Part shown: positions 44,127-61,286 of the stretch, in pieces
Position numbering within the stretch: position 1 is the first letter of the stretch
How the letters are laid out: the number at the start of each line of letters is the position of its first letter
NCBI GenBank assembly: GCA_947494435.1
Contig: CANLUY010000001.1
Coordinates: 1,912,001 to 1,976,000 of the forward strand
Direction: 5' to 3'
From: an uncultured Litoreibacter sp.
GTDB taxonomy: Bacteria; Pseudomonadota; Alphaproteobacteria; Rhodobacterales; Rhodobacteraceae
DNA: 64,000 bases
Notes under the pieces: model-generated
Database searches by the model: none
Seen by the model: the letters and a program-made list of their open reading frames with translations, nothing else
What the model was told of the DNA's origin: nothing
Position numbers and translations under genes: made by a program

Positions 44127-45155
44127 CTAAAAGCTGATGCCGACCTTAATCGCCTGTGATCTGTCCGAGGCCAATTCAAACGCTTTCACCGCGTCGTCAA
44201 TCGGCAGGCTGTGGGTGATCAATGGTCGCACATCAATGCGTCTGTTGCGCAATGCCTCGGCAACCTCAAAAAACTCGGCATGGAAGCGGAAGGACCCTTT
44301 TAAAACAAGCTCTTTCGCGGTCATGGCCTGCAAAGGCAATGTCATGTCTCCACCAAGGCCCAGTTGAACAATCGTCGCACCTGGACGCAGGGCAGGTACG
44401 GCGGACGCAAGTGCGACCGCAACGCCGGTACATTCAAAGAGGACGTCGAAATGTCCCTTGTCTTCGTCGTATTTGCGCAATCCGTCCGGCTCAGTCACGA
44501 CGTTGATTGTATGATCAGCGCCGACATCTTTCGCCTTCGATAAGGTGAATTCGGCCAAGTCAGTCGCGACGATTTCAGCCGCCCCAGCATACCGCGCCAC
44601 AAGAACGCAGAGCAATCCGATTGGGCCGCACCCTGTGACTAGGACGCGTTTGCCGGTGAGCGATCCGGCCTGACGCACCGCGTGCCAAACCACAGACAGA
44701 GGCTCGGCCATCGCGGCTTCTGCGGCAGTGATGTCACCGGCTTTGGCGCATTGGCTCACATCAGCGACGATATTTTCTTGGAACGCGCCTTGAATGTGTG
44801 GGAACGGCATCGCTGATCCGTAGAACCGCATGTTGAGGCAATGGTTTTGCGTGCCTTGCGCACAATATTTGCAGTTGCCGCAGGGGCGTGACGGTGAAAT
44901 AGCGACCAACTCGCCTTGGGTGAAGCCGTCAACACCCGCGCCAAGCGCCTCGATATGTCCGGCGACTTCGTGGCCCAGCACCATGGGCTCCTTCAATTGG
45001 ATCGGGCCAAATCCGCCGTGATTGTAATAATGCAGATCGGATCCACAGATGCCACCTGCCGCCATCTTGATCAGAACTTGACCGGCCCCCAGATCAGGGA
45101 TGTCGCGGTCTTCAATCCGCAGGTCTTTTGCAGCATGGGCGACGATGGCTTTCAT
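44127..45155 (-). CDS. idnD: Zinc-dependent L-idonate 5-dehydrogenase
   Basis: The 342-residue enzyme is a medium-chain dehydrogenase with the catalytic zinc site GGICGSDLHYY and GHEVAGH, the structural zinc cysteines in PCGNCKYCAQGTQNHC, and the NAD motif VTGCGPIGLLCV. It closely matches IdnD, which oxidises L-idonate to 5-ketogluconate. The ATG at 45155 follows a GAGG ribosome site; longer in-frame starts reach back over 170 bases of non-conserved sequence. It is divergent from idnO across 412 bases that hold the operator pair. Confidence 0.9.
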   Translation of the reverse strand: MKAIVAHAAKDLRIEDRDIPDLGAGQVLIKMAAGGICGSDLHYYNHGGFGPIQLKEPMVLGHEVAGHIEALGAGVDGFTQGELVAISPSRPCGNCKYCAQGTQNHCLNMRFYGSAMPFPHIQGAFQENIVADVSQCAKAGDITAAEAAMAEPLSVVWHAVRQAGSLTGKRVLVTGCGPIGLLCVLVARYAGAAEIVATDLAEFTLSKAKDVGADHTINVVTEPDGLRKYDEDKGHFDVLFECTGVAVALASAVPALRPGATIVQLGLGGDMTLPLQAMTAKELVLKGSFRFHAEFFEVAEALRNRRIDVRPLITHSLPIDDAVKAFELASDRSQAIKVGISF

Positions 45156-45567
45156 TGTGGACCTCATAAGGCTGGAGTGGGCAGGGATTGGCCTGCGCGT
45201 TGGATGGGAAGAGCCGCGCGGTTGGGTTGAGCCAAATCTGTGTTGCTCGCGCGAAACTGCGGATCGACTCTCGTTTTTTTCTGAGCAGGGATGCTCCCGT
45301 TGCCCCGAGCTTGCTTGAACACGGCGCATCATTCAACGCTTCTTCTTTACGGGCTGACATCGGCGTGCTTCTGATTTTTTGGCCGTAGGGCTGTCGTGGC
45401 ATTACTTTCTGAGCGGGCCGCATTTATGACCCAGACCGGTCTAAGGCTAACCTGCAGAATGACGGAATTATAAGACATGTATTCCCGCTTGACAGAAATT
45501 GTTATCGGTATCATGTTATCGGTAACAATTGTCATGCCGTCAAGGCCCCGAACGGAGAATACCCTTC
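45156..45567. other. 412-base divergent intergenic region between idnD and idnO
   Basis: The left 320 bases show no conserved coding frame, RNA gene or repeat that I can support. The right end holds a TTGACA hexamer at 45489-45494 and two back-to-back LacI-type operators at 45500-45527, about 40 bases before the idnO start. Confidence 0.6.
45500..45527. promoter_or_regulatory. Tandem GntR/IdnR-type LacI operators before idnO
   Basis: TGTTATCGGTATCA (45500-45513) is followed directly by TGTTATCGGTAACA (45514-45527); the second is a near-perfect palindrome. Both resemble the operators of enterobacterial GntR. They begin 5 bases after a TTGACA -35-like hexamer and would cover the -10 region, so binding should repress. 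The LacI gene at 47624 is the likely regulator. Confidence 0.75.
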
Positions 45568-46332
45568 ATGAGCAACTTATTTTCGCTGTCTGGCAAGCGT
45601 GCGCTGATCACCGGATCTTCGCAAGGTATCGGCTTCGCATTGGCGCGTGGATTATCGGCAGCGGGCGCCGAAATTATTTTGAACGGGCGCGATACGGCAA
45701 AGCTTGCTGAGGCTACAAAACAGCTGAGGGAAGAGGGTGCCGCGGTCAGTGAGCTGGCTTTTGACGCAACCGATCATGACGGCGTGCGCGCCGCCGTAGA
45801 TGGGTATGAGGCCGCGAATGGGACAATTGATATCTTAGTCAACAACGCTGGCATGCAGCATCGCACGGAGCTTGAGAATTTTCCGGCAGATGCGTTTGAG
45901 CGTTTGTTGCAGACCAATATCGCAAGCGTCTTTCATGTGGGTCAGGCTGTTGCACGACATATGATCGGGCGCGGCGCGGGTAAGATCATCAATATTGCAT
46001 CGGTCCAGACTGCATTAGCACGTCCTGGCATTGCGCCTTACACGGCGACCAAAGGTGCGGTTGCCAACCTCACCAAAGGGATGGCGACGGATTGGGCGAA
46101 GCATGGGTTGCAATGCAATGCCATCGCGCCGGGCTATTTCGACACGCCGTTGAACGCCGCCTTGGTGGCCGATCCGGAGTTTTCCGCATGGCTTGAGAAA
46201 CGCACACCGGCTGGGCGCTGGGGACAGGTCGATGAGTTGGTCGGGGCAGCGGTTTTCTTGTCGAGCGCGGCATCGAGCTTCGTAAATGGTCACACCCTTT
46301 ACGTTGATGGTGGGATCACGGCCAGCCTTTGA
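45568..46332 (+). CDS. idnO: Gluconate 5-dehydrogenase / 5-ketogluconate reductase (SDR)
   Basis: The 254-residue SDR begins MSNLFSLSGKRALITGSSQGIGFALA, like IdnO/Gno enzymes, and has NNAGMQHR, the catalytic YTATKGA, and IAPGYFDTPLNAAL followed by KRTPAGRWG. It interconverts 5-ketogluconate and D-gluconate with NAD(P)H. With idnD it forms the two-step link from L-idonate to gluconate. The ATG at 45568 follows a GGAG site. The operator pair lies about 40 bases upstream. Confidence 0.9.
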   Translation: MSNLFSLSGKRALITGSSQGIGFALARGLSAAGAEIILNGRDTAKLAEATKQLREEGAAVSELAFDATDHDGVRAAVDGYEAANGTIDILVNNAGMQHRTELENFPADAFERLLQTNIASVFHVGQAVARHMIGRGAGKIINIASVQTALARPGIAPYTATKGAVANLTKGMATDWAKHGLQCNAIAPGYFDTPLNAALVADPEFSAWLEKRTPAGRWGQVDELVGAAVFLSSAASSFVNGHTLYVDGGITASL

Positions 46333-46400
46333 AGACGCCTGCAGCTTGAGCAGCAGGACAATTTGCAAACCAATAGCGGGCCTTTCAGGAGGGCGATCCA

Positions 46401-47288
46401 GTGAGTGAAAAAATTGCTCTAATCGGGGCAGGTGCCATGGGCGGTGCCATCGGGACCCGTTTTCTAGAGACAGGAAATGCGCTTTGCGTCTTTGACCTCG
46501 ATCCCGACCGGGTTGCGGCGTTGGTCGACAAGGGGGCAACCGCGGCGCAGACGGCGGCAGATGCCGCGCGTGAAGCCGATTTTGTGATCGTCAGTCTGAA
46601 TTCCTCAAAGATCGTCGAGTTGGCTGTGTTTGGTGATGGCGGCGCTGCGCAAGGGGCCAAGCCCGGTACGCTGATCATTGATATGTCCTCCATCGAACCT
46701 GACGCGACGCGACGCTTTGCGGAGCAGGCGAAAGCGCAAGGGCTCGGATGGGTCGACAGCCCACTCTCGGGCGGTGCGCCAAAGGCCTTGCTTGGTGAGT
46801 TGACACTGATGGCGGGAGGGGAGGTTGCGGATGTTGAGCGTGCTCATGTGGCCCTGAAACATGTCGCATCAAATTACACACATATGGGTCCGGCAGGGGC
46901 CGGGCAGACGACCAAGCTTATCAATCAGGTGTTGTGCGGATTGGGCTTTCTTGCGGTAGCAGAAGCCACGCAACTTGCACTGGACGCGGGCGTAGATGCC
47001 GAAAAAATCCCGCAAGCGCTTAAAGGCGGTCGTGCGGACAGCGCGTTGCTGCAGGAATATCTGCCGCGCTATGCCACCAAAGACTACCGCCGCACGGGCC
47101 GGATCGACAACATGGTCAAAGACCTCAATGCAGTGAACGATCTGGCGCGGCAAACCGGAACTTCGATGCCGATGACCGCGCTATGTGGTGAGATCCACCG
47201 CATGCTGACTGCTGCTGGCCTTGGCGGCGAAGATCAGGCTGCGGTGATGGAATTTTTCAAGGGTGCGAAAGAGGAGATAGCTCCATGA
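46401..47288 (+). CDS. Beta-hydroxyacid dehydrogenase (tartronate-semialdehyde reductase-like)
   Basis: The 295-residue protein starts at a GTG after a strong GGAGG and has the cofactor motif ALIGAGAMGGAIGTRFL, the substrate segment DSPLSGGAPKAL and the catalytic Lys in GQTTKLINQV. The family includes GarR, L-threonate dehydrogenase and 3-HIBADH. In this operon it probably acts on a sugar-acid intermediate. It overlaps the small EthD-like gene by ATGA. Confidence 0.9.
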   Translation: MSEKIALIGAGAMGGAIGTRFLETGNALCVFDLDPDRVAALVDKGATAAQTAADAAREADFVIVSLNSSKIVELAVFGDGGAAQGAKPGTLIIDMSSIEPDATRRFAEQAKAQGLGWVDSPLSGGAPKALLGELTLMAGGEVADVERAHVALKHVASNYTHMGPAGAGQTTKLINQVLCGLGFLAVAEATQLALDAGVDAEKIPQALKGGRADSALLQEYLPRYATKDYRRTGRIDNMVKDLNAVNDLARQTGTSMPMTALCGEIHRMLTAAGLGGEDQAAVMEFFKGAKEEIAP

Positions 47289-47617
47289 TTACACGTTTTG
47301 CTTTGTTTGAAGGAACGGTGAAGCCCGGGCAGACGGAGGCGTTTCGCGCTGCCGTGCACGAACGGCTCGTCCCATTGTGGACGCAGTTTCCGGGAAATGC
47401 AGGTGTCCAAGTGATGTTCGGGGAAGACCGCGATCCGGGTGCGCCAGAATTTCCGCTGATGCTTGCGATCAATTATCCAGACGAAGCTGCCATGATAGCC
47501 GCGCTGGAAGCGCCCGTTCGTCAGCAGTCAAAAGATGTGACGGGCGAAGTGGTCGCGGCTTTCTTTGAGGGGCGCATTCATCACCACGTGACGACATGCC
47601 ATGATTTTCCGGCCTAA
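47285..47617 (+). CDS. Small EthD/ABM-like protein, paralogue of the one at 42207
   Basis: The 110-residue protein starts MITRFALFEGTVKPGQTEAFRAAV and shares with the 42207 protein the LTPLW/LVPLW segment, VMFGEDRD versus VLYGEEQD, and PLMLAINYPDEAAM versus PLILAITYADHAAM. It is probably a dimeric alpha-beta barrel. It is coupled to the beta-hydroxyacid dehydrogenase before it and lies 6 bases from the LacI gene after it. Function unknown. Confidence 0.75.
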   Translation: MITRFALFEGTVKPGQTEAFRAAVHERLVPLWTQFPGNAGVQVMFGEDRDPGAPEFPLMLAINYPDEAAMIAALEAPVRQQSKDVTGEVVAAFFEGRIHHHVTTCHDFPA

Positions 47618-47623
47618 GTCCTG

Positions 47624-48631
47624 ATGAGCGCGCGCATCACCATGCGCGATGTGGCACGCCATGTTGGCGTGTCGCCCATGACCGTCTCGCGCGCGCTTCG
47701 GGATGATGAAACGGTCAACCCGAAAACGCGCGCGAAAATCAAGGAGGTCGCGGACGCGCTGGGCTATGTCTATGACACGACCGCGCAGGCTTTCCGCACC
47801 AACAAAAGCGGGTTTGTCGCGTTTACGCTGCCCTCGCTCAACAACGCCAACTTTGCGACAACGTATCGCGATCTCTCGAACGGCTTGGCGGGAACGCCGA
47901 TTCAGCTGTTGATCGGCAGCACAAATTACCGTGTTGAGAAAGAGGAAGAGTTGATACAACAACTTCTGGCCCGCAATCCGGAGGCAATGGTTCTGACCGG
48001 CGGATATCACACCGACACAACCCGAAGTTTGCTAAAGCGGCGCGATATTCCTGTGATCGAGATTTGGGATTTGCCGGACACCCCAATCGGTCATGTCGTA
48101 GGCTTTTCCAATGCTGATGCGATGGGGCTTGTGGTGCAGCATCTCGCGCAAACAGGTCGGCGTCGCTTGGCTTTTGTCGGTGCCGCGGAGGGGGCTGACC
48201 AACGCGGTGCGGAGCGGCGGGCAGGGGCTGAGAAAGCCGCGCGTGACTTGGGTCTGCCAGAGATGGCGTTCATCAATTGCGGACCTGCGCCTGTCTCCAT
48301 GCGCCATGGCGCGGATGCGATCGTGGAATTGGGCGCAGGCGTCGCGAAATATGATGCTTTGGTCTGTGTGTCCGATCCTGTGGCGTTCGGATGTTTGTCG
48401 AGCTGTAAGCGATTAGGCCTGTCTGTCCCGGATGATCTGGCAATCACAGGGTTTGGGAATTTCGACATGTCGCAGGTCTCAGACCCGCGTATCACGACGG
48501 TCAATGTCAATGCGGGGCAAATCGGCCACGGATGTGCCGACGTCTTGCGATCTATCTTCGAAGAGGGCGCTGCGCTGGCACCGCAGGTCCACGATGTTGG
48601 GTTCAACTTGGTGCCGGGCGAGACGAGCTAG
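47624..48631 (+). CDS. LacI-family regulator of the GntR/IdnR subfamily
   Basis: The 335-residue protein has the helix-turn-helix MRDVARHVGVSPMTVSRALRDD (recognition residues Pro18, Met19), a hinge helix near residue 50, and a periplasmic-binding-protein-like effector domain with FVAFTLPSLNN and FGNFDMSQVSDPRITTV. It closes the idnO operon and probably binds the operators at 45500-45527, with gluconate or a related acid as inducer. It converges with the next LacI gene, overlapping by 4 bases. Confidence 0.92.
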   Translation: MSARITMRDVARHVGVSPMTVSRALRDDETVNPKTRAKIKEVADALGYVYDTTAQAFRTNKSGFVAFTLPSLNNANFATTYRDLSNGLAGTPIQLLIGSTNYRVEKEEELIQQLLARNPEAMVLTGGYHTDTTRSLLKRRDIPVIEIWDLPDTPIGHVVGFSNADAMGLVVQHLAQTGRRRLAFVGAAEGADQRGAERRAGAEKAARDLGLPEMAFINCGPAPVSMRHGADAIVELGAGVAKYDALVCVSDPVAFGCLSSCKRLGLSVPDDLAITGFGNFDMSQVSDPRITTVNVNAGQIGHGCADVLRSIFEEGAALAPQVHDVGFNLVPGETS

Positions 48632-49665
48632 GCCTCTGGCAGCCTGCGCACTGTAGAGCCTGGGATCAACCGGAACCCCACATCCTTGCAGTTTTCGACC
48701 GGCTCGTTGGACAGCCGCGCGATCATCATCTCGGCTGCGGTTTGCCCAAGCTTCAGATGCGGCACATGCATGGAGGTCATGCGAGACGTCAGCACAGGCG
48801 CGATAGGCAAATCGCCCCATCCGGCAATGCCGATATGTTCTGGAATGCGTAAGCCTTTGGACTGGCAATATTGCGATCCGCCAAATGCCATCGCGTCATT
48901 TTGGTAGAAAATACATTCGGTGTCTCCAGAGGAAGCCAGCAATTGTTCGGTGCCGTAGAAGCCGGGGTAATAGGTCGCGGTATCGTGCAGGCACAACTGT
49001 TTGACGACTTCCCCACCGCCATTCTCAACGGCCTCAACGAACCCTGCCATGCGGGTGGTCGCTGCATTTGCCGTGTTGTGGGATGTGCCGACATATCCGA
49101 TCTTGCGATAGCCGCAATTGATCAGATAGCGACCCATGTCAAAACCGCTGTCAAAATGATTGATCCCGACGCTCATATCCAAAGGGCTGGAGTTAAAGTC
49201 CCAAATCTCAACAATGGGTATGCCTGCATTGCGCAACATATCCATCGCTTTTTTGGAGTGGTTGCGTCCCGTCAGGATCAGCCCCGCAGGCTGCCATGAC
49301 AAAACAGTCCTGATCCAGCTTTCTTCTTCCTCAAGCGTGTGTTGCGTCAGCCCCAGAACGGACTGATATCCAAGCCGTCCCAGCTTGCGATCGATGCCTT
49401 CCAGCACCTGCGCAAATACTTCGTTTCCGAGGTCGGGGATCGACACGCCGATGAAGGTCGAAGACGTGTCACCGGCAAACACCGTGGCCAAACGATTCGG
49501 CAGGTAGCCCAAACGGTCGACCTGCTCCATCACCTTAAGGCGCGTATCTTCCGAGTATCCGCCTTCTTCGCGCAAAACACGGCTTGCGGTCATTTTTGAA
49601 ACGCCTGCTGCCTTGGCGACCTGAGTGAGGCTTACCTTGTTGTTTTTATTTCTATTTTCACTCAT
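48628..49665 (-). CDS. LacI-family regulator of the GntR/IdnR subfamily, divergent from sugar ABC operon
   Basis: The 345-residue protein has the helix-turn-helix SLTQVAKAAGVSKMTASRVLREEG (recognition residues Lys24, Met25), and the effector domain with FIGVSIPDLGNEVFAQVLEGI and GWGDLPIAPVLTSRMTSM. It is closest in style to E. coli GntR, which also has Lys-Met. It starts 15 bases from a GTTACGGGTAAC operator and is divergent from the tandem ABC importers, so it likely represses both itself and that operon. Confidence 0.92.
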   Translation of the reverse strand: MSENRNKNNKVSLTQVAKAAGVSKMTASRVLREEGGYSEDTRLKVMEQVDRLGYLPNRLATVFAGDTSSTFIGVSIPDLGNEVFAQVLEGIDRKLGRLGYQSVLGLTQHTLEEEESWIRTVLSWQPAGLILTGRNHSKKAMDMLRNAGIPIVEIWDFNSSPLDMSVGINHFDSGFDMGRYLINCGYRKIGYVGTSHNTANAATTRMAGFVEAVENGGGEVVKQLCLHDTATYYPGFYGTEQLLASSGDTECIFYQNDAMAFGGSQYCQSKGLRIPEHIGIAGWGDLPIAPVLTSRMTSMHVPHLKLGQTAAEMMIARLSNEPVENCKDVGFRLIPGSTVRRLPEA

Positions 49666-49679
49666 TTTTGGTCACTTAC

Positions 49680-49748
49680 GTTACGGGTAACTTAGCGCTT
49701 GACAGGATGCGTTTCTGCGACAAACAATAGCTCAGCGTTACGGGTAAC
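49680..49748. promoter_or_regulatory. Promoter flanked by two identical GTTACGGGTAAC operators
   Basis: The 12-mers at 49680-49691 and 49737-49748 are identical and near-palindromic. Between them lies a -35-like TTGACA (49699-49704) and an AT-rich AACAAT at 49723-49728 with an 18-base spacer. One operator adjoins the LacI gene start and the other lies about 40 bases before the ABC ATPase, a layout suited to repression from both sides or to looping. Confidence 0.75.
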
Positions 49749-49787
49749 TCAATCGTAGAGTTGTCCATGACTTGGGAGGGGCGCGAC

Positions 49788-51314
49788 ATGCAGAACCTAC
49801 AATCAGGTCTGTTTTTCGACGGGATCGAGAAGCATTTTGGCGGCACATATGCCCTGAAAGATGTCTCGTTGACTGTGGGTCGTGGCGAGATCGTAGCGCT
49901 GCTTGGCGAGAACGGTGCTGGCAAATCAACCCTCATCAAAGTGCTAGGCGGCATTCACCAGCCTGACGGTGGCAAAGTGCTGATTGACGGTGTGGAATAT
50001 CAACACCGCACTGCCGGGTTTGGCGAGCGCCAGAAAGTGGCGTTTATCCACCAAGACCTCGGTCTGATCGAGTGGATGACGGTTGCCGAGAACATTGCGC
50101 TTGCGCTTGGCTTCGCGCGGAAGCGGGGCCTTGTTGATTGGGGCTCCGTCGACCAGTTCGCGGTTGAAGCACTGAAGAAAGTGGATTGTGATTTTGACCC
50201 AAGCACGCGGGTTGAGGATTTGTCACGGACAGAGAAATCCCTCGTCGCCATTGCACGGGCCTTAGCTGTCGATAGCGAGTTTCTTGTCCTCGATGAGCCG
50301 ACGGCGTCGCTTCCTGCCGACGAGGTGGAGCGGCTGTTTGCGGCACTGCGTCCATTGCGCGAGCGCGGCGTTGGGATGATCTATGTCAGTCACCGCTTGG
50401 ATGAAATTTTCCAGATTGCAGATCGCGTGGCCGTGTTGCGCGACGGCGCAATGGTCGGCGTGCGCAGTATTGAACACACTACGCCCGAAGAGCTGGTGCA
50501 AAAGATCGTGGGCCGCAAAACCCGCAAAACGGTCAAGCTGGACAACGCGCCCGGCGAAGAGGTGCTGCGGCTCGAAAAGTTCAAGGTCGGCGCGGTCGGC
50601 CCGCTTGAGTTTTCACTGCGTAAGTTCGAGATCGTTGGACTGGTCGGTCTGCGCGGGGCAGGTCATGAAGACATTTCCCGCTCGCTTTTTGGCTTGGCCC
50701 CTTTCCAGGGGCAGGCCTTTTTGGAAGGTACGCCATTGTCTGTCCCGACGCCGCAGGCCGCAATGGCTGCGGGCATTGGCATGGTGGCCAAGGATCGCAC
50801 AGAGGAATCTGTCGCTATGAGCCTGTCTATCCGCGAAAACACTTTCCTGAACCCAGAAGGGTTTGGCCGCAAGCTCATGAGCTTCTTGTCCCCTCGCACG
50901 GAAGCGGACCAAGCAGCCATCATTGGGGCGGAGCTGGGGCTGTCGCCGAACGATCCAACCCTTGCGATTGAAGCTTTGTCAGGGGGCAATCAGCAGAAAG
51001 TCGTCATTGGGCGGTGGTTGGCAACGAACCGCAAACTTCTGCTCTGCGAGGACCCGACGGCTGGCGTCGATGTCGGCGCGAAGTTCGAAATTTATTCTCT
51101 GATGAACCGTGCATTGTCGGAAGGTGTCGCGATCCTCGTGGTCTCCACAGACTTTGAAGAGATCGCAACCATTTGCCATCGCGCCGTTGTGTTCAGCCAA
51201 GGCGAGATCGTCGATGAGCTGTCAGGCGTGCGCTTGACCACTGAAAATCTAATTCAATCGGCTTCGGCTGGGAATATTGCTGAGACGAAGGAGACGCCGC
51301 ATGCAATCGCTTGA
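49788..51314 (+). CDS. CUT2-type sugar ABC transporter ATPase (two nucleotide-binding domains)
   Basis: The 508-residue ATPase joins two ABC domains, as in RbsA/MglA/XylG. The first has Walker A GENGAGKST, a reduced signature VEDLSRTEKSLVAIARAL and Walker B FLVLDEPTASLP. The second has a degenerate Walker A (GLRGAGHEDI) but a good signature SGGNQQKVVIGRWL and CEDPTAGVDVGAK. The ATG at 49788 lies 7 bases after GGGAGGGG. It overlaps the permease gene by 14 bases. First gene of a six-gene run with two full importers. Confidence 0.93.
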   Translation: MQNLQSGLFFDGIEKHFGGTYALKDVSLTVGRGEIVALLGENGAGKSTLIKVLGGIHQPDGGKVLIDGVEYQHRTAGFGERQKVAFIHQDLGLIEWMTVAENIALALGFARKRGLVDWGSVDQFAVEALKKVDCDFDPSTRVEDLSRTEKSLVAIARALAVDSEFLVLDEPTASLPADEVERLFAALRPLRERGVGMIYVSHRLDEIFQIADRVAVLRDGAMVGVRSIEHTTPEELVQKIVGRKTRKTVKLDNAPGEEVLRLEKFKVGAVGPLEFSLRKFEIVGLVGLRGAGHEDISRSLFGLAPFQGQAFLEGTPLSVPTPQAAMAAGIGMVAKDRTEESVAMSLSIRENTFLNPEGFGRKLMSFLSPRTEADQAAIIGAELGLSPNDPTLAIEALSGGNQQKVVIGRWLATNRKLLLCEDPTAGVDVGAKFEIYSLMNRALSEGVAILVVSTDFEEIATICHRAVVFSQGEIVDELSGVRLTTENLIQSASAGNIAETKETPHAIA

Positions 51315-52323
51315 ATCAAGCGCATTGGAGCCGACCAAGGCCGAACTGACCGGCCTGACATTCGGGCAGAAACTGATGCGGTTCTTGCCTGTTTATGGGC
51401 TTGTGATTTTGATGGTGTTTTTGATCGGGTTGTTCTCGGTGCTGCTGCCGAACACTTTCCCGACCATGTTGAACTTGCGGGCGATTGTCTCTGACAAAGC
51501 AATTATCGCGCTGTTGAGCTTGGGCGCCATGATCCCAATGGCTGCGGGCCGGATTGATTTGACTGTCGGCTACGGGATTGTGTTGTGGCACATTTTGGCG
51601 ATCAGCTTGCAAACCATGCTGGGCTTGCCTTGGCCGATTGCGGTGGCTGTGGTTTTGCTGCTTGGCGCTGTGAGCGGATTTCTGAACGGGCTGCTCGTCG
51701 AAGTGGCCAAGATCGACAGCTTCATCGCCACACTTGGTACGGGCACGGTGCTTTACGCATTGGCGCTTTGGCATACGGGCGGGCGGCAAATGGTGGGTGT
51801 CTTGCCGCAAGGGTTTTACGACATCAGCACAACCTTTGTCTTCGGACTGCCCATCACTGGCTATTATCTTCTAGCCATCACCGTGGTGATGTGGGTCGTC
51901 CTCGAATACACGCCCGTGGGACGCTACCTTTACGCCATCGGCGCCAACCAACGCGCCGCACAGCTAAACGGTATTCCGACGCGGAAATATGTGATCGGTG
52001 CGTTCGTTGCCTCAGGAACGATGACGGCTCTGGCCGGTGTCATTCTCGCCTCAAAACTGCGGATCGGGCAGGCCAGTGTTGGACTTGAGTTCCTGCTGCC
52101 CGCACTTGTGGGCGCGTTCTTGGGATCAACAACAATCAAGCCGGGTCGGGTCAATGTTTGGGGCACAATCGTCGGTGTCGCCATTCTGGCGGTGGGCATT
52201 TCCGGTATTCAACAATTCGGCGGCTCCTTCTGGGTTGAGCCGCTGTTCAACGGGGTAACCCTGCTGATCGCCATTGGCATCGCAGGATACGCACAGCGCA
52301 AAAAAGGTGCAGATAAGCGCTGA
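51301..52323 (+). CDS. CUT2-type sugar ABC transporter permease (RbsC family)
   Basis: The 340-residue permease has about nine to ten membrane helices and the family segments MIPMAAGRIDLTVGYG, SGFLNGLLVEVAKIDSFIATLGTGTVL and the ANQRAAQLNGIPTRKY cytoplasmic loop that contacts the ATPase. It should form a homodimer. Its start overlaps the two-domain ATPase gene by 14 bases. Binding protein follows after 28 bases. Confidence 0.92.
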   Translation: MQSLESSALEPTKAELTGLTFGQKLMRFLPVYGLVILMVFLIGLFSVLLPNTFPTMLNLRAIVSDKAIIALLSLGAMIPMAAGRIDLTVGYGIVLWHILAISLQTMLGLPWPIAVAVVLLLGAVSGFLNGLLVEVAKIDSFIATLGTGTVLYALALWHTGGRQMVGVLPQGFYDISTTFVFGLPITGYYLLAITVVMWVVLEYTPVGRYLYAIGANQRAAQLNGIPTRKYVIGAFVASGTMTALAGVILASKLRIGQASVGLEFLLPALVGAFLGSTTIKPGRVNVWGTIVGVAILAVGISGIQQFGGSFWVEPLFNGVTLLIAIGIAGYAQRKKGADKR

Positions 52324-52351
52324 GACTTTACATGCAAAGGGAGGACTAACT

Positions 52352-53392
52352 ATGCAAAAAAGAACATTTATCGCAGGGCTTATGGCTACATCCATGATGG
52401 TCAGCGTGCCAGCCTTGGCCGCCGATTGGGACGGTCCGACAACGGGACCGGCGGCGGCAGATGGCAAGTCCATCGTGGTTGTTGCAGGTGATCTGAAGAA
52501 CGGCGGTATTCTGGGCGTGACAGGTGGCGTTGAAGAGGCGGCCGCAAAAATTGGCTGGGATGTTCGGGTGCTTGATGGCGCGGGCTCTATCCAAGGCAGG
52601 ACAGCTGCGATTGGACAAGCAATGGCGTTGCAGCCGGATGGTTTGATCATCAACGGCTTTGACGCGGTTGAACAACAAGCGGCGCTTGAAGGCGTCGTTG
52701 CGGCCTCCATTCCAATGGTTGCGTGGCATTCTGGTCCGAAGATCGGGTGCGATGCGCCGGGTGGCATTTTCGCGAATGTATCCACTGACGCGATGACGGT
52801 GTCCGAAGTGGCAGCGGAGTGGGCGATTGACGACGGCGGCAAAGATATCGGCGTCGTGATTTTTACGGACTCCACCTATCAGATCGCGATCGACAAAGCG
52901 GACCGTTTGAAAGAAACGGTAGAAGCTGCAGGCGGCAAAGTTCTGGAATATGTCGACACACCGATTGCCGATACGTCGACCCGCATGGGGCCATTGACGA
53001 CCTCGCTTTTGCAGAAATACGGCGACAGCTGGACCCATGCTTTGGCGATCAATGACCTGTATTTCGACTTTATGGGGCCATCACTTGCTGCTGCGGGCTT
53101 GGCGCCGGATGCAGGGCCACAAGCGGGCTCTGCAGGTGACGGATCAGAGGCGGCATTCCAGCGGATCCGCTCAAGCGGTTATCAAACCATCACTGTTGCT
53201 GAGCCATTGAATTTGCAGGGTTGGCAGCTGGTTGACGAGTTGAACCGCGCAATCTCTGGTGAGGCTTGTTCAGGCTACATCACGTCGCCAGCTCTGGTCA
53301 CCAAAGATGGTTTGGAAAAAATGGGTGATGCGAACGCCTTTGATCCAGACATCCCGTACCGCGACGCTTACGCCACAATTTGGGGCAAGTAA
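52352..53392 (+). CDS. Sugar ABC transporter substrate-binding protein (RbsB-like), first set
   Basis: The 346-residue protein has a signal peptide (residues 1-23, ending PALAA) and the sugar-binding fold with SIVVVAGDLKNGGILGVTGGVEEAA and the PDGLIINGFDAVEQQAAL segment. The ATG at 52352 follows GGGAGG. It is the third gene of the first importer set. The ligand is not evident; the neighbours suggest a sugar or sugar acid. A hairpin follows. Confidence 0.88.
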   Translation: MQKRTFIAGLMATSMMVSVPALAADWDGPTTGPAAADGKSIVVVAGDLKNGGILGVTGGVEEAAAKIGWDVRVLDGAGSIQGRTAAIGQAMALQPDGLIINGFDAVEQQAALEGVVAASIPMVAWHSGPKIGCDAPGGIFANVSTDAMTVSEVAAEWAIDDGGKDIGVVIFTDSTYQIAIDKADRLKETVEAAGGKVLEYVDTPIADTSTRMGPLTTSLLQKYGDSWTHALAINDLYFDFMGPSLAAAGLAPDAGPQAGSAGDGSEAAFQRIRSSGYQTITVAEPLNLQGWQLVDELNRAISGEACSGYITSPALVTKDGLEKMGDANAFDPDIPYRDAYATIWGK

Positions 53393-53410
53393 GCGTTTCG
53401 GTCCTCCCCG

Positions 53411-53434
53411 GCTCTCGGGAGCAATCCCGAGAGC
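53411..53434 (+). terminator. Hairpin after the first sugar-binding-protein gene
   Basis: GCTCTCGGGA pairs perfectly with TCCCGAGAGC around a GCAA tetraloop, 18 bases after the stop codon. There is no T-run, so it may stabilise or partly attenuate the transcript before the second ABC set. Confidence 0.65.
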
Positions 53435-53506
53435 TAAACGTTCCAGAAGGCATTCGACGGTTGCGGTCTCGTGCAACTGAATTCAACTCATATTGAAAGT
53501 GGTCAG

Positions 53507-54262
53507 ATGAGCCCTCCTTTGATCAAGATGCGCGCGATCACCAAGCGTTTTGGCGGCGTCACCGCCCTCAGCCAAGTCGACCTAGATGCCCATGCAGGCG
53601 AAGTTCTTGCAATTGTTGGCGACAACGGTGCTGGAAAATCCACGCTGATCAAAGTCCTCACAGGTGTTTATCAGCCTACCGAGGGACAATTGTTCTTGGA
53701 TGGATCGGAAGTCGCCTTTGCCTCTCACGCAGACGCAATTGAGAAGGGTATTGATGCGGTCTATCAGACCTTGGCGCTGGCCGACCACTTGGACCCGGCG
53801 GCCAATATGTTCCTCGGCAATGAGCTGACCCGCAAAGTGATGGGTATGACATTGCTCGACAATAAACGCATGCGCGCAGAGACTGAACGCGTCTTGATGG
53901 AGCGTTTGGGGGTTCAGCTAAAATCCCTCGATGCGCCAACCGAAAGCTTGTCAGGCGGCCAGCGCCAAGCCGTTGCGATTGCGCGGGCGGTCTATCACGA
54001 AGGCCTGCGGGTTTTGGTGATGGACGAACCGACCGCAGCCCTCGGCCCGCAGGAGACCGCGCGGACCCTGAAGCTTATCAAAACCCTTAAAGCGCAAGGG
54101 TTAGCAGTCATCCTGATCAGCCACTCTTTGGACGACGTCTTCGATGTCTCCGATCGCATACACGTGCAACGCAGGGGAAAATGTGTGGGCGTTGTCGAGA
54201 CGAAGAACAGCAACACGCAAGAGGTCCTCGGCATGATCGTCGGCGCAGAGGAGGCGGCATAA
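53507..54262 (+). CDS. CUT2-type sugar ABC transporter ATPase, single-domain, second set
   Basis: The 251-residue ATPase has one ABC domain with Walker A GDNGAGKST, signature LSGGQRQAVAIARAV, Walker B VLVMDEPTAALGP and switch His in ISHSLDD. Single-domain ATPases of this family (FrcA type) work as homodimers, unlike the two-domain copy in the first set. The ATG at 53507 lies after GAAAGTGG and starts the domain; a GTG at 53471 would add 12 residues. The stop overlaps the permease start (TAATG). Confidence 0.92.
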   Translation: MSPPLIKMRAITKRFGGVTALSQVDLDAHAGEVLAIVGDNGAGKSTLIKVLTGVYQPTEGQLFLDGSEVAFASHADAIEKGIDAVYQTLALADHLDPAANMFLGNELTRKVMGMTLLDNKRMRAETERVLMERLGVQLKSLDAPTESLSGGQRQAVAIARAVYHEGLRVLVMDEPTAALGPQETARTLKLIKTLKAQGLAVILISHSLDDVFDVSDRIHVQRRGKCVGVVETKNSNTQEVLGMIVGAEEAA

Positions 54263-55380
54263 TGTCTGACGCAACTTACACAAAAACCACCGTAGAGCGC
54301 TTGGAACCTTACATTGCGATCATCGGCCCTTTGGTCATGATCCTTGCCATTCTTATTTTCATGGGAATTGCGGAACCTGCCCGCTATTTCCGGCTGACCA
54401 ATATCAATCTGATCTTGCTGGATGCAGCACTTTATATGCCGATGGCGATGGCCATGACCTTCGTGATCACGCAGCGTGGCATTGACTTGTCTATCGGCTC
54501 AATCGCCGCTTTGTCCGCGATCATAATGGCCTTCCTCATCAAGCAATACGGGTTCTCCGTCTATGTCGCCGTGCCGATTGCAATCATGATCGGGGCGGTT
54601 CTGGGCCTTATCAACGGGTTAATCATCACTCGGTTCAATGTGCCCGATCTGATTGGCACGCTCGCGATGGACCTTGTCTATCGTGGCTTTGCCCTGGTGC
54701 TGGCCAAAGGATTGGTGCTGGCACGTTTCCCTGATTTCCTGACAGAAATCGGGCGCGGTCAAATTCCGGGGTTTGTCCCGATTCCGGTTGTGATCGGCAT
54801 TGCGACGATGATCGGAGGCTTTCTGCTCCTACGGCGGACATATTTCGGACGCTACACCATCGCAATTGGGTCCAATCCCGAAGCGGCAGAACTGACCGGC
54901 GTCGCTGTCGCACGTCACAAGGTTTACGCCTATGTGCTCTGCGGCGCAGCTGCGGCACTGGCTGGCGTCATGCTGACAGGCAAACTCAACGCCATTCAGG
55001 CAACGTCAGCGCCCTATTTCAACTTGCACGTCATCGCGGCTGTAGTCGTCGGCGGTACATCTCTCTTCGGTGGACGGGCGGCGATGCTGGGGTCGTTCTG
55101 TGGTGTCTTGTTGTTGTCCATGATGATCAACGCGCTCGTCACTTTGCGGATTGAGTTCTTTTGGCAATCCGTGGCCTCAGGCGTCGTGATCGTCAGTTCC
55201 GTGGCCTTGTACACTTGGATGCAAAAAAAGGACCGTGATGGGGCGGGGGGCTGGATGGCAGCCCTCGCAACACCAGAGGGACAAAAAACACTGCGCTTTT
55301 GCGCATTACTCATTGGGCTATTGATTGCGCTGCTTGCAATCGGTGGCCTGACGGCCGGAAGCGCTAATCCTAGCGGTTGA
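54262..55380 (+). CDS. CUT2-type sugar ABC transporter permease, second set
   Basis: The 372-residue permease has the segments MAMTFVITQRGIDLSIGSIAAL, GAVLGLINGLIITRFNVPDLIGTLAMDLV and the ATPase-contact loop SNPEAAELTGVAVARHK. An additional C-terminal hydrophobic helix (about residues 342-362) lies after a short charged stretch, making it longer than the first-set permease. It overlaps its ATPase gene by one base. Confidence 0.92.
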   Translation: MSDATYTKTTVERLEPYIAIIGPLVMILAILIFMGIAEPARYFRLTNINLILLDAALYMPMAMAMTFVITQRGIDLSIGSIAALSAIIMAFLIKQYGFSVYVAVPIAIMIGAVLGLINGLIITRFNVPDLIGTLAMDLVYRGFALVLAKGLVLARFPDFLTEIGRGQIPGFVPIPVVIGIATMIGGFLLLRRTYFGRYTIAIGSNPEAAELTGVAVARHKVYAYVLCGAAAALAGVMLTGKLNAIQATSAPYFNLHVIAAVVVGGTSLFGGRAAMLGSFCGVLLLSMMINALVTLRIEFFWQSVASGVVIVSSVALYTWMQKKDRDGAGGWMAALATPEGQKTLRFCALLIGLLIALLAIGGLTAGSANPSG

Positions 55381-55402
55381 CCGGATCAAGCGGAGTTGGC
55401 CG

Positions 55403-55424
55403 GGTCGGGGGTGCAGCTCCGACC
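55403..55424 (+). repeat. Hairpin between second permease and second binding protein
   Basis: GGTCGGGG pairs with CTCCGACC (one G-T wobble) around GTGCAG. An outer AGCGGAG (55389-55395) also matches CTCCGCT (55436-55442). No T-run follows, so this may be an mRNA processing or stability element. Confidence 0.5.
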
Positions 55425-55465
55425 ACGACCGATGGCTCCGCTCTCATGCAAAGGGAGGAACCAAG

Positions 55466-56611
55466 ATGAGACTTTTAGCAACAACGGGACTGGTCGCAAG
55501 TGTGACGCTGGCAGGTGCTGCATTTGCAGATGGGCACGCGAGTTTACCGCTGGTCGAATTGCCGGGCATTGAAGACCGCGACTATTGGGTGCCGGGTGAA
55601 GTGAACGCGGAAGGCAAACTTGAAGCACTGCAAGCAGTCGTCGGTAGTGACGCGGTTGCGTTCACAGGAACGCTGGAGAAGCCCGTTCAAATCGCACTGA
55701 TATATCCGTCAGCCGATACGTCTGATTTCTGGGCCCGCAACTACCTCGCGCTTACAAAGCGGCTGGACCAGTTGGGCATCAACTATGAAACCACGGAATT
55801 TGCTTCGCGTCAGATCGAACACTCACTGCAATCGACCTATGCCAACCAGGTGTCGCAAGATGCAGACCTTTATGACTATGTCATCTTCGGCCCGTCTGAG
55901 CTGGCTATTCAAGGCGACAACATCCAAAAGCTGGCAAGCAATGACGGTTTCGCGACATATGTCTGGGCTTTTCACACGCCACTGAAATATCTCGAGAAGC
56001 AGCCTGATGCTTGGTTTGACTTCTCGTCTGCGGCTGGTGCGCTGACCATGTGTGACTACATGCTTGGACGTTTGGGCAACGATGTCACTATGGCGATGAA
56101 CCGCGGTATTCCGGGCATCACCGACAATCAGCGTTCGGGTGACTTCAAAGCCTGCGTTGAAGAAAAAGGCAATTGGACCACCGTGTATGAGCATTACGGC
56201 GAATACCAAACGGAAGGTGGATTTGAAGGTACATCGCTGATTTTGCAGTCCTATCCAGAGGCCACGATCATCCACAACGCCAACACGGCGATGGCAATGG
56301 GCTCAGTTGAGGCGCAGGTCTCGATGGGCAAAGAGAAAGAAATTTTCTCAACCGGCTGGGGCGGTACTGGGCTTGAGCTTGATGCAATCCGGCGCGGTGA
56401 GCTTGACGCGACACCAATGCGGATGGGCGACGATGTCGGCGCGGCAACAGCCGAAGCCATCAAGGCCGATTTGGAAGGGCGCGCGGATGAGTTGCCGCTT
56501 GTCTTCCTTGGCCGGATCACGGTCGCGCATGACCAAATGAGCGCGGACGAGATTGACGGTTTGGAAAAAGAAGCCTTCCGTTTCTCTGGCGTCGGTGCCT
56601 TGAAACGCTAA
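55466..56611 (+). CDS. Sugar ABC transporter substrate-binding protein, second set
   Basis: The 381-residue protein has a signal peptide (residues 1-22) ending AFADGHA. A linker of about 50 residues precedes a periplasmic-binding fold starting IALIYPSADTSDFWARNYLAL. It has similarity in layout to TorT/LuxP-like sugar binders. GGGAGG precedes the ATG at 55466. It differs greatly from the first-set protein, so the two importers probably have different ligands. A terminator follows. Confidence 0.87.
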   Translation: MRLLATTGLVASVTLAGAAFADGHASLPLVELPGIEDRDYWVPGEVNAEGKLEALQAVVGSDAVAFTGTLEKPVQIALIYPSADTSDFWARNYLALTKRLDQLGINYETTEFASRQIEHSLQSTYANQVSQDADLYDYVIFGPSELAIQGDNIQKLASNDGFATYVWAFHTPLKYLEKQPDAWFDFSSAAGALTMCDYMLGRLGNDVTMAMNRGIPGITDNQRSGDFKACVEEKGNWTTVYEHYGEYQTEGGFEGTSLILQSYPEATIIHNANTAMAMGSVEAQVSMGKEKEIFSTGWGGTGLELDAIRRGELDATPMRMGDDVGAATAEAIKADLEGRADELPLVFLGRITVAHDQMSADEIDGLEKEAFRFSGVGALKR

Positions 56612-56617
56612 GCGATC

Positions 56618-56650
56618 AAGACGGCGCTATGCCAACCATGGCGCCGTCTT
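56618..56650 (+). terminator. Terminator after the second binding-protein gene
   Basis: AAGACGGCGC pairs perfectly with GCGCCGTCTT across a 13-base loop and is followed by CTTGTT. It ends the tandem ABC run just before the next LacI promoter. Confidence 0.75.
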
Positions 56651-56673
56651 CTTGTTATGGGTTGACCTTCCTT

Positions 56674-56687
56674 TGTGACCGGTAACA
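56674..56687. promoter_or_regulatory. LacI-type operator TGTGACCGGTAACA before the third LacI gene
   Basis: This 14-mer is nearly palindromic and identical to the sites in front of the CUT1 operon (57784-57819). It lies 10 bases before the LacI start and just after TTGACC at 56662-56667, consistent with autorepression. Confidence 0.75.
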
Positions 56688-56696
56688 CAGTAGGGC

Positions 56697-57746
56697 ATGT
56701 CTGACATGCACCCTCCCAAAGCCCCAAATCTTGTGACGATGCGCGACGTCGCCCGCGCGGCGGGTGTGTCTCGGATGACGGTGTCGAGGGCTCTGAAGAA
56801 GGACAGCCCCATCTCGAAAGAGACGCGGGACCGCATTCTAAAAATCGTGCGGGAGATGAATTATGTCCCCGATCAGATGGCGGGCAGCCTGACAACCAAA
56901 CGCTCAGGCTTCGTCGCGGTGCTGGTCCCGTCGTTGAATAACCTACACTTTGCCGAAACCGTTCAGGCCCTGACCGAAGAGCTTGAGAAGATCGACCAAC
57001 AGGTTCTGCTTGGCTACACCGACTATTCCGCGGCCCGCGAAGAACAATTGGTAGAAACCATGCTGCGTCGCAGGCCTGAGGCCATTGTCTTGTCCTATGA
57101 CGGGCATTCCCCTCGTACTGCCGCGCTTTTGGCGGATGCGAATGTGCCGGTGATTGAGCTTTGGGAGCGTCCCCAAGACCCGATTGGCTACACAATTGGA
57201 TTTTCGAACCGCAAGGCTGCCGCTGATATGACAACGGCTTTGATCGCGCGCGGATATCGCAACATCGCTTTCCTGAGTGAGGACGAGGATGACTGGACAC
57301 GCGGTGCGCAGCGCTTCAAGGGCTACGTTGATGCCATGACTGCGGCGGGCTTGTCAGCGCACCGCGTAATGAAGATCGGCAAGCCGCCTTTGTCAATCGA
57401 AGACGGTGCCGCTGCCGCTGGCCCAATGTTGACCGCGTTTCCAGATACGGATTGCATCTTCTGCGTCTCGGATGCCCCCGCATTTGGGGTTCTGTCAGCT
57501 ATCAAGTCGATGGGAAAATCGGTTCCAAACGACATCGGCGTCGCAGGCTTCGGGAACTTCGAAGTTTCACGATTTTCATCGCCCACCATTTCGACCGTTA
57601 CGGTTGATCCGAAGGTGATCGGGCGGGCATCTGGGCAATTGATCGCCAAATTATTCTCCCAATCGAATCCCGAACCAGAGATCGTCAAAAATTTGGATGT
57701 GACGGTCCAATTGAGCTTTCGCGAAAGTACGAAAAATACGAAGTAA
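56697..57746 (+). CDS. LacI-family regulator of the CUT1 sugar importer operon
   Basis: The 349-residue protein has the helix-turn-helix TMRDVARAAGVSRMTVSRALKKD (recognition residues Arg26, Met27), and an effector domain with FVAVLVPSLNNLHFAETVQAL and GFGNFEVSRFSSPTISTV. It shares the GntR/IdnR-like layout with the other two regulators of the region. An ATG at 56706 is an alternative start. Identical operators before itself and before the ATPase gene at 57839 indicate control of both. Confidence 0.92.
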   Translation: MSDMHPPKAPNLVTMRDVARAAGVSRMTVSRALKKDSPISKETRDRILKIVREMNYVPDQMAGSLTTKRSGFVAVLVPSLNNLHFAETVQALTEELEKIDQQVLLGYTDYSAAREEQLVETMLRRRPEAIVLSYDGHSPRTAALLADANVPVIELWERPQDPIGYTIGFSNRKAAADMTTALIARGYRNIAFLSEDEDDWTRGAQRFKGYVDAMTAAGLSAHRVMKIGKPPLSIEDGAAAAGPMLTAFPDTDCIFCVSDAPAFGVLSAIKSMGKSVPNDIGVAGFGNFEVSRFSSPTISTVTVDPKVIGRASGQLIAKLFSQSNPEPEIVKNLDVTVQLSFRESTKNTK

Positions 57747-57783
57747 CGGTATTTCAATGGTTTAGCCGAGTTTGTTTTTCTTG

Positions 57784-57819
57784 TGTTACCGGTCACAATT
57801 GTTAATGTGACCGGTAACA
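57784..57819. promoter_or_regulatory. Inverted pair of LacI-type operators before the CUT1 operon
   Basis: TGTTACCGGTCACA (57784-57797) and TGTGACCGGTAACA (57806-57819) are exact reverse complements, with a 22-base period or about two helical turns. The second ends 19 bases before the ATPase start. The arrangement puts two regulator dimers on one face of the DNA. Confidence 0.8.
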
Positions 57820-57838: not shown

Positions 57839-58927
57839 ATGCCAACAATCCATCTCGAAAATCTTGTGAAACGATATGGCGAGGTTGAGGTCCTGCACGG
57901 GATCGAGCTTGAGATGGCGGATAACGAATTCACAGTTCTTGTCGGACCATCAGGCTGCGGAAAATCGACGACACTGCGGATGATTGCGGGCCTTGAGGAC
58001 GTCTCAGACGGTGAGATCTATATCGGCGGAAAGCCGGTCAGTCATCTCGAACCGAAAGAGCGCGATCTTGCGATGGTATTTCAGGATTACGCTCTTTACC
58101 CACACATGAACGTTGCCAAAAACATGTCATTCGCCTTGCGTCTTCAAAAACGTCCGCAGGCGGAGATCGACAAGAAAGTACGCGACGTTGCGGCGACGTT
58201 GGGCCTCAGCGAATATCTTGATCGCAAGCCGGGTGAGTTGTCTGGCGGTCAGCGGCAGCGCGTCGCAATGGGCCGCGCGCTGACGCGTGACGCGGGTACG
58301 TTCCTGTTTGACGAGCCGCTTTCGAATTTGGACGCGAAATTACGCGGGCAGATGCGCGCTGAACTCGCCTTGATGAGCCAGCGTGTTCAGAAAAACATGA
58401 TCTACGTCACCCATGACCAGATCGAGGCGATGACACTGGCGGATCGGATTGTGGTCATGCATGGCGGATATATCCAGCAGCAAGGCACACCGGAAGAGCT
58501 GTTCAAGCGTCCAGTCAACAAGTTCGTCGCAGGCTTCTTAGGCATGCCACCTATGAACTTTCTGGAAGGTGAGATCGAAGAGCGCGCGGATGCTGTGTTC
58601 ATCAAAGGGGAAGGGTTCGACCTGCGCCTTGATGGCGAGCGCGCGGCCACCGCTAAAGCGCATCGTGCAAGGGAAGTCACGCTCGGTGTGCGCCCGTCTG
58701 ATCTTACCTATGACGCCAATGTCGCGGCCGACAGGTCGCTGACGCTCGACGTCATGGTTTCTGAATATGTCGGCGCGCAGTCGGTTCTGTTGTGCCAATG
58801 CGGCTCGGCCAAAGTGATGGTGGAGCTGAACTCTGAGACGCCCGTTGCCTTGGGTCAAACGCTGACATTTGCGGTGAATGCGAACGGGGTTCACCTGTTC
58901 GACCGCCAAAGCGAAGCCGCCCTTTAG
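57839..58927 (+). CDS. CUT1-type sugar ABC transporter ATPase (UgpC/MalK family)
   Basis: The 362-residue ATPase has Walker A GPSGCGKST, Q-loop VFQDYALYPHMNV, signature LSGGQRQRVAMGRAL, Walker B FLFDEPLSNLDA and switch His in YVTHDQIEA. The regulatory OB-fold tail (residues 240-362, ending HLFDRQSEAAL) marks the MalK/UgpC type. Being first in the operon, ahead of the binding protein and permeases, is unusual in order but clear in spacing (31 bases). Confidence 0.95.
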   Translation: MPTIHLENLVKRYGEVEVLHGIELEMADNEFTVLVGPSGCGKSTTLRMIAGLEDVSDGEIYIGGKPVSHLEPKERDLAMVFQDYALYPHMNVAKNMSFALRLQKRPQAEIDKKVRDVAATLGLSEYLDRKPGELSGGQRQRVAMGRALTRDAGTFLFDEPLSNLDAKLRGQMRAELALMSQRVQKNMIYVTHDQIEAMTLADRIVVMHGGYIQQQGTPEELFKRPVNKFVAGFLGMPPMNFLEGEIEERADAVFIKGEGFDLRLDGERAATAKAHRAREVTLGVRPSDLTYDANVAADRSLTLDVMVSEYVGAQSVLLCQCGSAKVMVELNSETPVALGQTLTFAVNANGVHLFDRQSEAAL

Positions 58928-58958
58928 CGGCTCAATCAAACATCACAGGGAGGAACTG

Positions 58959-60299: not shown

Positions 60300-60310
60300 G
60301 ATCCTCCCTA

Positions 60311-60339
60311 TCTCGGGGCGGCGCAATGCCGCCCTGAGA
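60311..60339 (+). terminator. Hairpin between the CUT1 binding protein and permease genes
   Basis: TCTCGGGGCGGC pairs with GCCGCCCTGAGA (one G-T wobble) around GCAAT. No T-run follows. It resembles the hairpin after dctP and may allow higher expression of the binding protein than of the permeases. Confidence 0.65.
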
Positions 60340-60374
60340 CCCAGACGAATTTCCCAATCGAAAGGCTGCATCTG

Positions 60375-61286
60375 ATGCGCATCGCTCAGGCAAACCGCAT
60401 GACGCCGTATTTATTTATGGCACCGGCCGCGATCATCATGGCCATCGCGTTGATGTATCCGCTGGGCTACATGATGTGGGGCAGCTTGCGGGATTGGGAC
60501 CCGACGCAGACCATCGGCGAGGCCGAATTCGTGGGCCTGCGCAATTACGTGACGCTCTGGAATGATCCGAATTTCTGGGAAAGCCTCACAGTTACATTGA
60601 AGTTTGCCTTTTTCGTCGTGACATTCGAGATGGTCATTGGTGTAGGGCTCGCGCTGCTTCTTGACCGCGATATCCGCGGCATGTCGATCCTGCGCACACT
60701 CTTCATTCTACCGATGATGATCGCCCCCGTCGTGGTTGGTTTGATGTGGCGCTACATGTACCACCCGACCATCGGGACCTTTAACCGCTTCCTTGAAAGC
60801 ATCGGGCTGGAGCGCGTCGATTGGCTTGGCAACCATGCTCTGATGTCGATCATCATTGCCGATATCTGGCAATGGACCCCGTTCATCTTCATCCTTGCCT
60901 TGGCCGCGCTGCAATCCTTGCCCCGCTCCGCACTCGAAGCCGCGCGCATTGATGGCGCGACGGGCTGGCAGCAGATCATTCACATCAAACTGCCTTTGAT
61001 GATGCCGGTTCTGATCGTCACCGCGCTGTTGCGTTTGATTGACGCGTTCAAAGTGCTTGAGGTGATCCTTGTGATGACCGAAGGCGGGCCGGGTCTCAGC
61101 ACAGAAATCCTCGCCCTTCGGATCAGCCGGACAGCGACGGAGTTCCGCGAGCTTGGCGTCGCGGCAGCGATGTCGAACTATCTGTTGATCCTGCTTTTGC
61201 TGCTCACCGTCGCCATGTTCGCGTTCAACCGCTGGCAGGAAATTCGTGCCGCCCGACAGAAAATGGCTGTGGAGGAGGAAGAATAA
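60375..61286 (+). CDS. CUT1-type sugar ABC permease (MalF/UgpA family)
   Basis: The 303-residue permease has six predicted membrane helices and the EAA motif ALEAARIDGATGWQQIIHIKLPLM. The N-terminal helix PYLFMAPAAIIMAIALMYPLG is typical of the family. It overlaps the second permease gene by one base (TAATG) and forms a heterodimer with it. Confidence 0.93.
   Translation: MRIAQANRMTPYLFMAPAAIIMAIALMYPLGYMMWGSLRDWDPTQTIGEAEFVGLRNYVTLWNDPNFWESLTVTLKFAFFVVTFEMVIGVGLALLLDRDIRGMSILRTLFILPMMIAPVVVGLMWRYMYHPTIGTFNRFLESIGLERVDWLGNHALMSIIIADIWQWTPFIFILALAALQSLPRSALEAARIDGATGWQQIIHIKLPLMMPVLIVTALLRLIDAFKVLEVILVMTEGGPGLSTEILALRISRTATEFRELGVAAAMSNYLLILLLLLTVAMFAFNRWQEIRAARQKMAVEEEE

Follow-up and report, generated by a model that had tools for sequence, protein, structure and literature searches.

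Three LacI-type regulators, here called A, B and C, lie close together in a 64,000-nucleotide stretch of DNA from an uncultured Litoreibacter sp. (the window; positions 1,912,001 to 1,976,000 of contig CANLUY010000001.1), and they probably act as three local repressors of one gluconate/idonate-type island, each with an operator class of its own. An earlier note on this DNA had described three neighbouring LacI regulators, each beside its own variant of one operator, and this observation is confirmed. All three open reading frames (ORFs) are present: A (recognition stretch VSPMTVSR) at 47624..48631 and C (VSRMTVSR) at 56697..57746 on the forward strand, and B (VSKMTASR) at 48628..49665 on the reverse strand, convergent with A and overlapping its end by 4 bp. 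Each of them matches the Pfam LacI helix-turn-helix domain (PF00356) and the periplasmic-binding-protein-like domain Peripla_BP_3 (PF13377) above cut-off.

The operators were located by pattern scan, supported by the relatives and, for the B and C pairs, by alignment, and they stand in pairs or with an autoregulatory copy as the earlier note had said (coordinates on the forward strand). Two A-type sites, TGTTATCGGTATCA at 45500..45513 and TGTTATCGGTAACA at 45514..45527 (on the other strand TGTTACCGATAACA), abut at a distance of 14 bp ahead of the leading gene of the A operon. These sites stand ~2.1 kb from the A gene, which has no operator immediately before it. Two copies of the B-type site CGTTACGGGTAACT, at 49679..49692 and 49736..49749, are 57 bp apart. 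C-type sites are found before the C gene (TGTGACCGGTAACA, 56674..56687) and before the importer that follows it, where TGTTACCGGTCACA at 57784..57797 and TGTGACCGGTAACA at 57806..57819 form an exact inverted repeat with a spacing of 22 bp. A sites are distinguished from B sites by their centre and their outermost base; at the two bases expected for the first two recognition residues both have TT. The pattern TGTTAYSGGTAACA at up to two mismatches gave 13 matches in the window, counting both strands where both match and including one at 15452 outside the cluster, against a mean of 0.39 in 100 shuffles. A genome scan for the 14-mers, proposed in the earlier note, placed all three exact copies of the C site and both exact copies of the B site in the 3.9-Mb genome at this cluster, with none at one mismatch; the A site at one mismatch has three places, its own neighbour and two elsewhere. 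No further genome site was found at one mismatch for B or C, and a wider regulon for either is rejected on this ground; at two mismatches the C site gave 14+14 strand matches against 17+17 for a reversed control.

We propose the following mechanism. A would bind the abutting pair ahead of its catabolic operon, B would bind two sites bracketing an importer promoter, and C would bind the inverted pair before the third importer together with the single site before its own gene. All these operators would belong to one Met-type family close to TGTTATCGATAACA. Repression would be local, by operators over or around the promoters, and the presumed inducer of each repressor is a sugar acid or lactone. 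Between the B operators a promoter-like TTGACA-18-AACAAT was found by consensus scan at 49699..49728 on the forward strand; the promoter scan of the region gave four such sites against 6.0 in shuffles and is alone no evidence for a B promoter, and TGTCAA, the complement of the predicted -35 element, is conserved between the B sites in an alignment of 17 loci.

The pairing of each regulator with its operator class is kept in relatives. Among 394 genomes of the family, that of the window included and at most five candidates scored per genome, C is found in 11 (E <= 1e-100), B in 24 (E <= 1e-85) and A in 40 (E <= 1e-80); nine of the 11 C genomes also have A, and six have all three. A, B and C stand in one stretch in the window, in L109, L182 and L183, and on a Tateyamaria plasmid (L335). 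This plasmid, the 79-kb pDOK1-4-2 of Tateyamaria omphalii, carries the same three-regulator island together with a gluconokinase, and the island may therefore move between replicons. We scanned 70 regions of relatives and the window, 71 regions in all, for operators with a rule that required a GT.A core and left positions 4, 2 and 1 free in its main form. A site was present in 37/40 promoters of the A clade (15/15 for A1 and 22/25 for A2; 13/13 and 24/27 before L196 and L221 were reassigned from A2 to A1), in 16/17 of the close B clade, B1, and 9/9 of B2, in 13/14 C gene and 14/14 C importer promoters, in 5/5 class D gene and 4/5 class D importer promoters and in 1/4 of class E, against 2-5% of shuffled sequences. 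The single B1 miss, L116, has an imperfect pair visible in the alignment.

In the 14 aligned C importer promoters both sites are nearly invariant and the remainder is not conserved, and in the 17 aligned B promoters the pair is conserved against otherwise variable intergenic DNA. The C importer pair reads TGTTACCGGTCACA then TGTGACCGGTAACA, with the TT half outside and the TG half inside; the right site is identical in 14/14 and both sites in 12/14, L110 (position 4, A) and L182 (position 5) having one changed base in the left inner half. The spacing is kept as well, at 14 bp in A1, 55-58 bp in B1 and, for the C pair, 22 bp in nine loci, 23 in four and 21 in one; the abutting A pair persists in 13/15 A1 loci, the window included. 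Operator spacings in the published survey peak at 13, 22 and 32 bp (Ravcheev et al., PMC4052901), and the abutting A pair is near the 13-bp class, which that source finds difficult to square with the binding of two dimers. Whereas the earlier note had paired protein and site by position only, the pairings are kept in relatives amid varying intergenic DNA, so that the pairing no longer depends on position alone and is backed by co-conservation. Homologues of the third importer lie beside non-orthologous Met-type regulators of class D in L111, L203, L220, L226 and L228, and these loci carry CGTTA-type sites such as CGTTAACGTTAACG; since the importer beside C has C operators, the operator follows the regulator. 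In L128 a homologous gluconate 5-dehydrogenase operon lies beside a non-Met (Thr-Ile) regulator and has ATGGTAT-type palindromes instead of any GTTA site.

The Met-type regulators are a single clade (100/97) in a tree of 105 proteins, and this clade splits into C with A (100/99) and E with D and B (100/99); the outgroup was the genome's ten other LacI proteins, and a long-branch warning arose there, outside the Met-type clade. The three regulators do not form one clade to the exclusion of others, as would be expected of a recent local paralogue set. C is the sister of A, and B belongs with the E and D regulators; the three are therefore not the product of one triplication; a single triplication by local duplication is ruled out, and the earlier claim of one diverged paralogue set falls with it. 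Sequence identity is 40% between A and C and 28% for both A-B and B-C.

Position 4 is T in 105/106 operator halves of A1 and A2 together and G in 40/82 C halves; in B1, position 7 is C or A in 58/64 halves and position 1 is G in 25/64. A1 and C are even palindromes with a central CG, the LacI/GalR type, with C at NT-1 in 53/56 and 82/82 halves, respectively; the B1 centre is often CC or GG (39 C and 25 G of 64 halves), a minority type among LacI-family operators (PMC4052901). Weight matrices with each locus left out in turn classified 26/28 A1, 30/32 B1 and 40/41 C sites correctly (96/101 overall, one overlapping match in L185 having been dropped), and only 7/13 B2 sites when set against A2 and C, the other 6/13 being classified as A2. 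The window B sites score 22.9 on the B1 matrix against 7.6 on A1 and 3.4 on C, the window C site 25.1 on its own matrix against 19.8 on the other of the A/C pair, and the window A site 24.4 on A1 against 22.3 on C.

The closeness of these last two scores bears on the possibility that A, B, C and a GapR-like regulator cross-bind shared targets as one network, in the manner of GntR and IdnR of Escherichia coli, a reading that we hold to be possible and somewhat short of probable. GntR recognises IdnR sites (PMC4052901), and an E. coli GntR switch study tested ATGTTACCGATAACAG, whose 14-mer is TGTTACCGATAACA, and a consensus ATGTTACCCGTAACAT with the core GTTACCCGTAAC, the first of the two giving the better response (PMC10450161). 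The window A site, read on the other strand, is thus identical to a tested GntR 14-mer, and the B core equals the GntR consensus core. Sharing is also suggested by L205, where an identical 14-mer stands at the A and B promoters, and by swapped sites in two further loci, the A promoter of L189 having a C-type site and the C gene of L190 being preceded by an A-type one. Against sharing stand the scores of the window B sites and the matrix separation of A1, B1 and C, together with the lack in the B sites of the outer T bases of the GntR consensus. The earlier note had gone further and given the divergence a purpose, that of keeping three sugar operons apart; such separation is plausible from the distinguishable sites, but the purpose is unproven in view of L205, L189 and L190, the B2 sites that classify as A2, the C pair kept in two genomes without a close A match and the reported use of both cores by E. 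coli GntR.

The GapR-like regulator enters this question directly. The genome's class E regulator, a LacI protein with the recognition stretch VSEMTVSR (L222), goes with the site TGTTATCGCTAACA. This differs from the A site by one base, and any claim of separation must therefore include the E regulator. The pattern GTTANCGNTAAC occurs at seven places in the genome, against 11 for a reversed control pattern: the A operator accounts for one, the E regulator has another in front of it, and the remaining five precede putative zwf, edd and enolase genes and two putative GAPDH genes (E regulator and sites at L222 7692-8817, at L223 3344 and 7441, and in L249, L250 and L251). These genes match the published regulon content of GapR of Rhodobacteraceae (PMC4052901), and the VSEMTVSR regulator and its sites are likely the GapR global regulon, likened by its Met-type protein and its gene content rather than by consensus letters. 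The other GTTANCGNTAAC places are ruled out as extra A targets, as their neighbouring genes fit GapR. GapR-type sites have G at position 2 in at least one half in 6/6 cases; this base is found in 0/196 A and B halves and 1/82 C halves, with a few more in the wider set. GapR is global, whereas A, B and C would be local, and operator prediction for Met-type LacI proteins in this family must allow for a global regulator whose site differs by one base.

It is rather unlikely that the operators came to differ by neutral drift of old lineages, without selection to keep them apart and with the three regulators neighbours only through one shared pathway. The distinct A/C and B lineages in the tree would fit such drift, as would the coexistence of B2 and A2 with near-identical sites and the retention of the C pair in two genomes (G259 and G321) in which none of the five candidates scored per genome matched A at E <= 1e-80. 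The identity of the C importer sites across the 14 promoters is nevertheless more than drift would leave.

The role of the first recognition residue, which the earlier note had taken to set specificity, is supported for C and fails for A and B; the alignment of related regulators with their promoters, also proposed there, bears out the co-conservation of operator and regulator, and the residue tracks the operator in C only. Regulators with Arg have a TG half-site in 30/32 of those with an operator (37 examined), whereas those with Pro, Val, Ala, Ser or Thr have one in 1/74 (94 examined), the sole exception being the A promoter of L189, whose genome carries C as well. For this count regulators of identical sequence were removed and a narrower stretch was searched (for Arg, 30 with TG, two without and five with no operator); the state table of the independent-pairs test was set by hand (31, two and four unknown), with L259, L261 and L265 omitted as copies. 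Two C-clade members with Ser or Val in place of Arg (L269 and L276), which the best tree places among the Arg regulators of the clade, have a like hinge and TT-only operators similar to TGTTATCGATAACA, so that residue and operator change together. C, the sister of A, combines Arg as its first recognition residue with the TG half-site; since C differs from A at eleven further columns of the DNA-binding domain, Arg is not singled out by the contrast between C and A alone.

As a general cause the first recognition residue is ruled out. In the A clade it may be P, V, A, T or S, and regulators with P, V, A or T have TGTTATCGATAACA in common. Lys is present in B1 as well as in B2, yet their operators differ, B1 sites being mostly AGTTACCCGTAACG-like and B2 sites A-like and often AGTTATCGATAACA-like (contrast sites CGTTACGGGTAACT and TGTTATCGATAACT). 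B1 would have changed the operator centre and an outer base while keeping Lys, and other DNA-binding residues must therefore be involved; residues 2, 3, 5, 6, 7, 18, 26, 52 and 55 separate B1 from B2. In the recognition code of the LacI family, residues 15 and 16 pair with bases 5 and 4, Met16 with TT, and base 2 covaries with residues 55, 15 and 5 (Camas et al. 2010, PMC2978694). The Met-type regulators here, with their TT family sites, agree with this code, whereas the difference between B1 and B2 lies outside its 15/16 part. At hinge position 54, Leu is found in C (14/14) and A2 (29/30) and Phe in A1 (16/16) and B1 (17/17); Leu occurs there in 82% of LacI-family regulators, so it is not obligatory (PMC2978694).

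The earlier note taken in full, with one paralogue set in which Pro, Lys and Arg set three specificities to keep three operons apart, is improbable and already largely refuted for A and B: residue and operator do both differ in the window and Arg does track TG, but the tree, the shared Lys of B1 and B2 with different operators and the single operator under P, V, A and T in the A clade speak against it. That the asymmetric C operator is read by a mixed dimer, C (Arg) on the TG half and A (Pro) on the TT half, is very improbable, for the C pair is kept in the two genomes without a close A match, although the symmetric TG/TG sites of the C relatives L266, L270 and L334 would favour it; if it held, the third importer would integrate two signals and the mirror-image pair would seat two dimers with their C subunits facing.

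Several points weigh against our own reading of three local repressors with separate operator classes. The evidence is sequence-based and binding is predicted only; the substrate assignment draws on family names, key ones of which fall under curated cut-offs. The loci are related, so the counts are not independent, and the shared core is partly by construction because the scan required GT.A. Among the 14 C-gene promoters one has no site, one has an imperfect site (L181) and one has an A-type and distant site (L190). Two Arg regulators, the distant C relatives L267 and L274, have TT sites only, and four have no operator found (five in the narrower search). Arg may also be of single origin, as the approximately unbiased (AU) test does not reject one Arg clade (p 0.211), and there is only one independent Arg/TG pair on supported branches, too few events for the independent-pairs test.

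With these points in view, the three regulators make a clear, largely ordinary example of related repressors using different switches, and they offer a comparative set of near-identical architecture with distinguishable operators. Its most useful parts are the tracking of Arg with TG in C and the contrast between B1 and B2, in which the same Lys-Met with a different operator tests how much specificity lies beyond the two recognition residues.

The best two NCBIfam models for A, B and C each are GntR and IdnR, and idonate dehydrogenase-like and gluconate 5-dehydrogenase-like genes lie nearby, the same gene types as with GntR and IdnR of gammaproteobacteria. Unlike those systems, the window proteins miss the equivalog level (266, 247 and 255 bits on the best GntR/IdnR model against a cut-off of 400), C has an asymmetric TG/TT operator, and three regulators share one island. 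From the family names the island would handle gluconate/idonate-type sugar acids. In the limited collection searched, exact operator strings led to the E. coli GntR switch study and to a Lactobacillus paper, and a literature search yielded no paper recognised by its title as being on this island.

On the far side of the A operators from the A operon, an L-idonate 5-dehydrogenase-like gene lies on the reverse strand at 44127..45155 (NCBIfam NF007375, 349 bits, under the cut-off of 469). Its ORF extends to 45332, and its probable start is near 45155 (Met at ORF residue 60; the NF007375 match begins at residue 58). Apart from B, the other genes are all on the forward strand. A is the last gene of its operon, after a gluconate 5-dehydrogenase-like short-chain dehydrogenase/reductase (45568..46332), an NAD-binding gene like 2-hydroxy-3-oxopropionate reductase or 3-hydroxyisobutyrate dehydrogenase (46401..47288), both assigned by family matches, and an ABM-like small protein (47285..47617; Pfam ABM, slightly below cut-off). 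B faces two sugar ATP-binding cassette (ABC) importers, each with ATPase, permease and binding protein, at 49788..53392 and 53510..56611; the operator scan gave no operator-like site in the gap before the second. Between the B operon and C lies a terminator-like hairpin of 14 pairs (56618..56650, forward strand), from a hairpin scan without overall excess (14 against 14.3 in shuffles). C precedes a UgpC/MalK-type ABC importer (57839..62221; ATPase, binding protein and two permeases, by family matches), and an SMP-30/gluconolactonase-like gene (62939..63862, Pfam SGL) follows downstream in the same direction. On a megaplasmid of Ruegeria pomeroyi (L334), a C relative (64%) adjoins an operon with an L-rhamnonate dehydratase and has symmetric TGTGACCGGTCACA sites; the structure PDB 3e3m, a close match to C, may be of this protein or a similar one.

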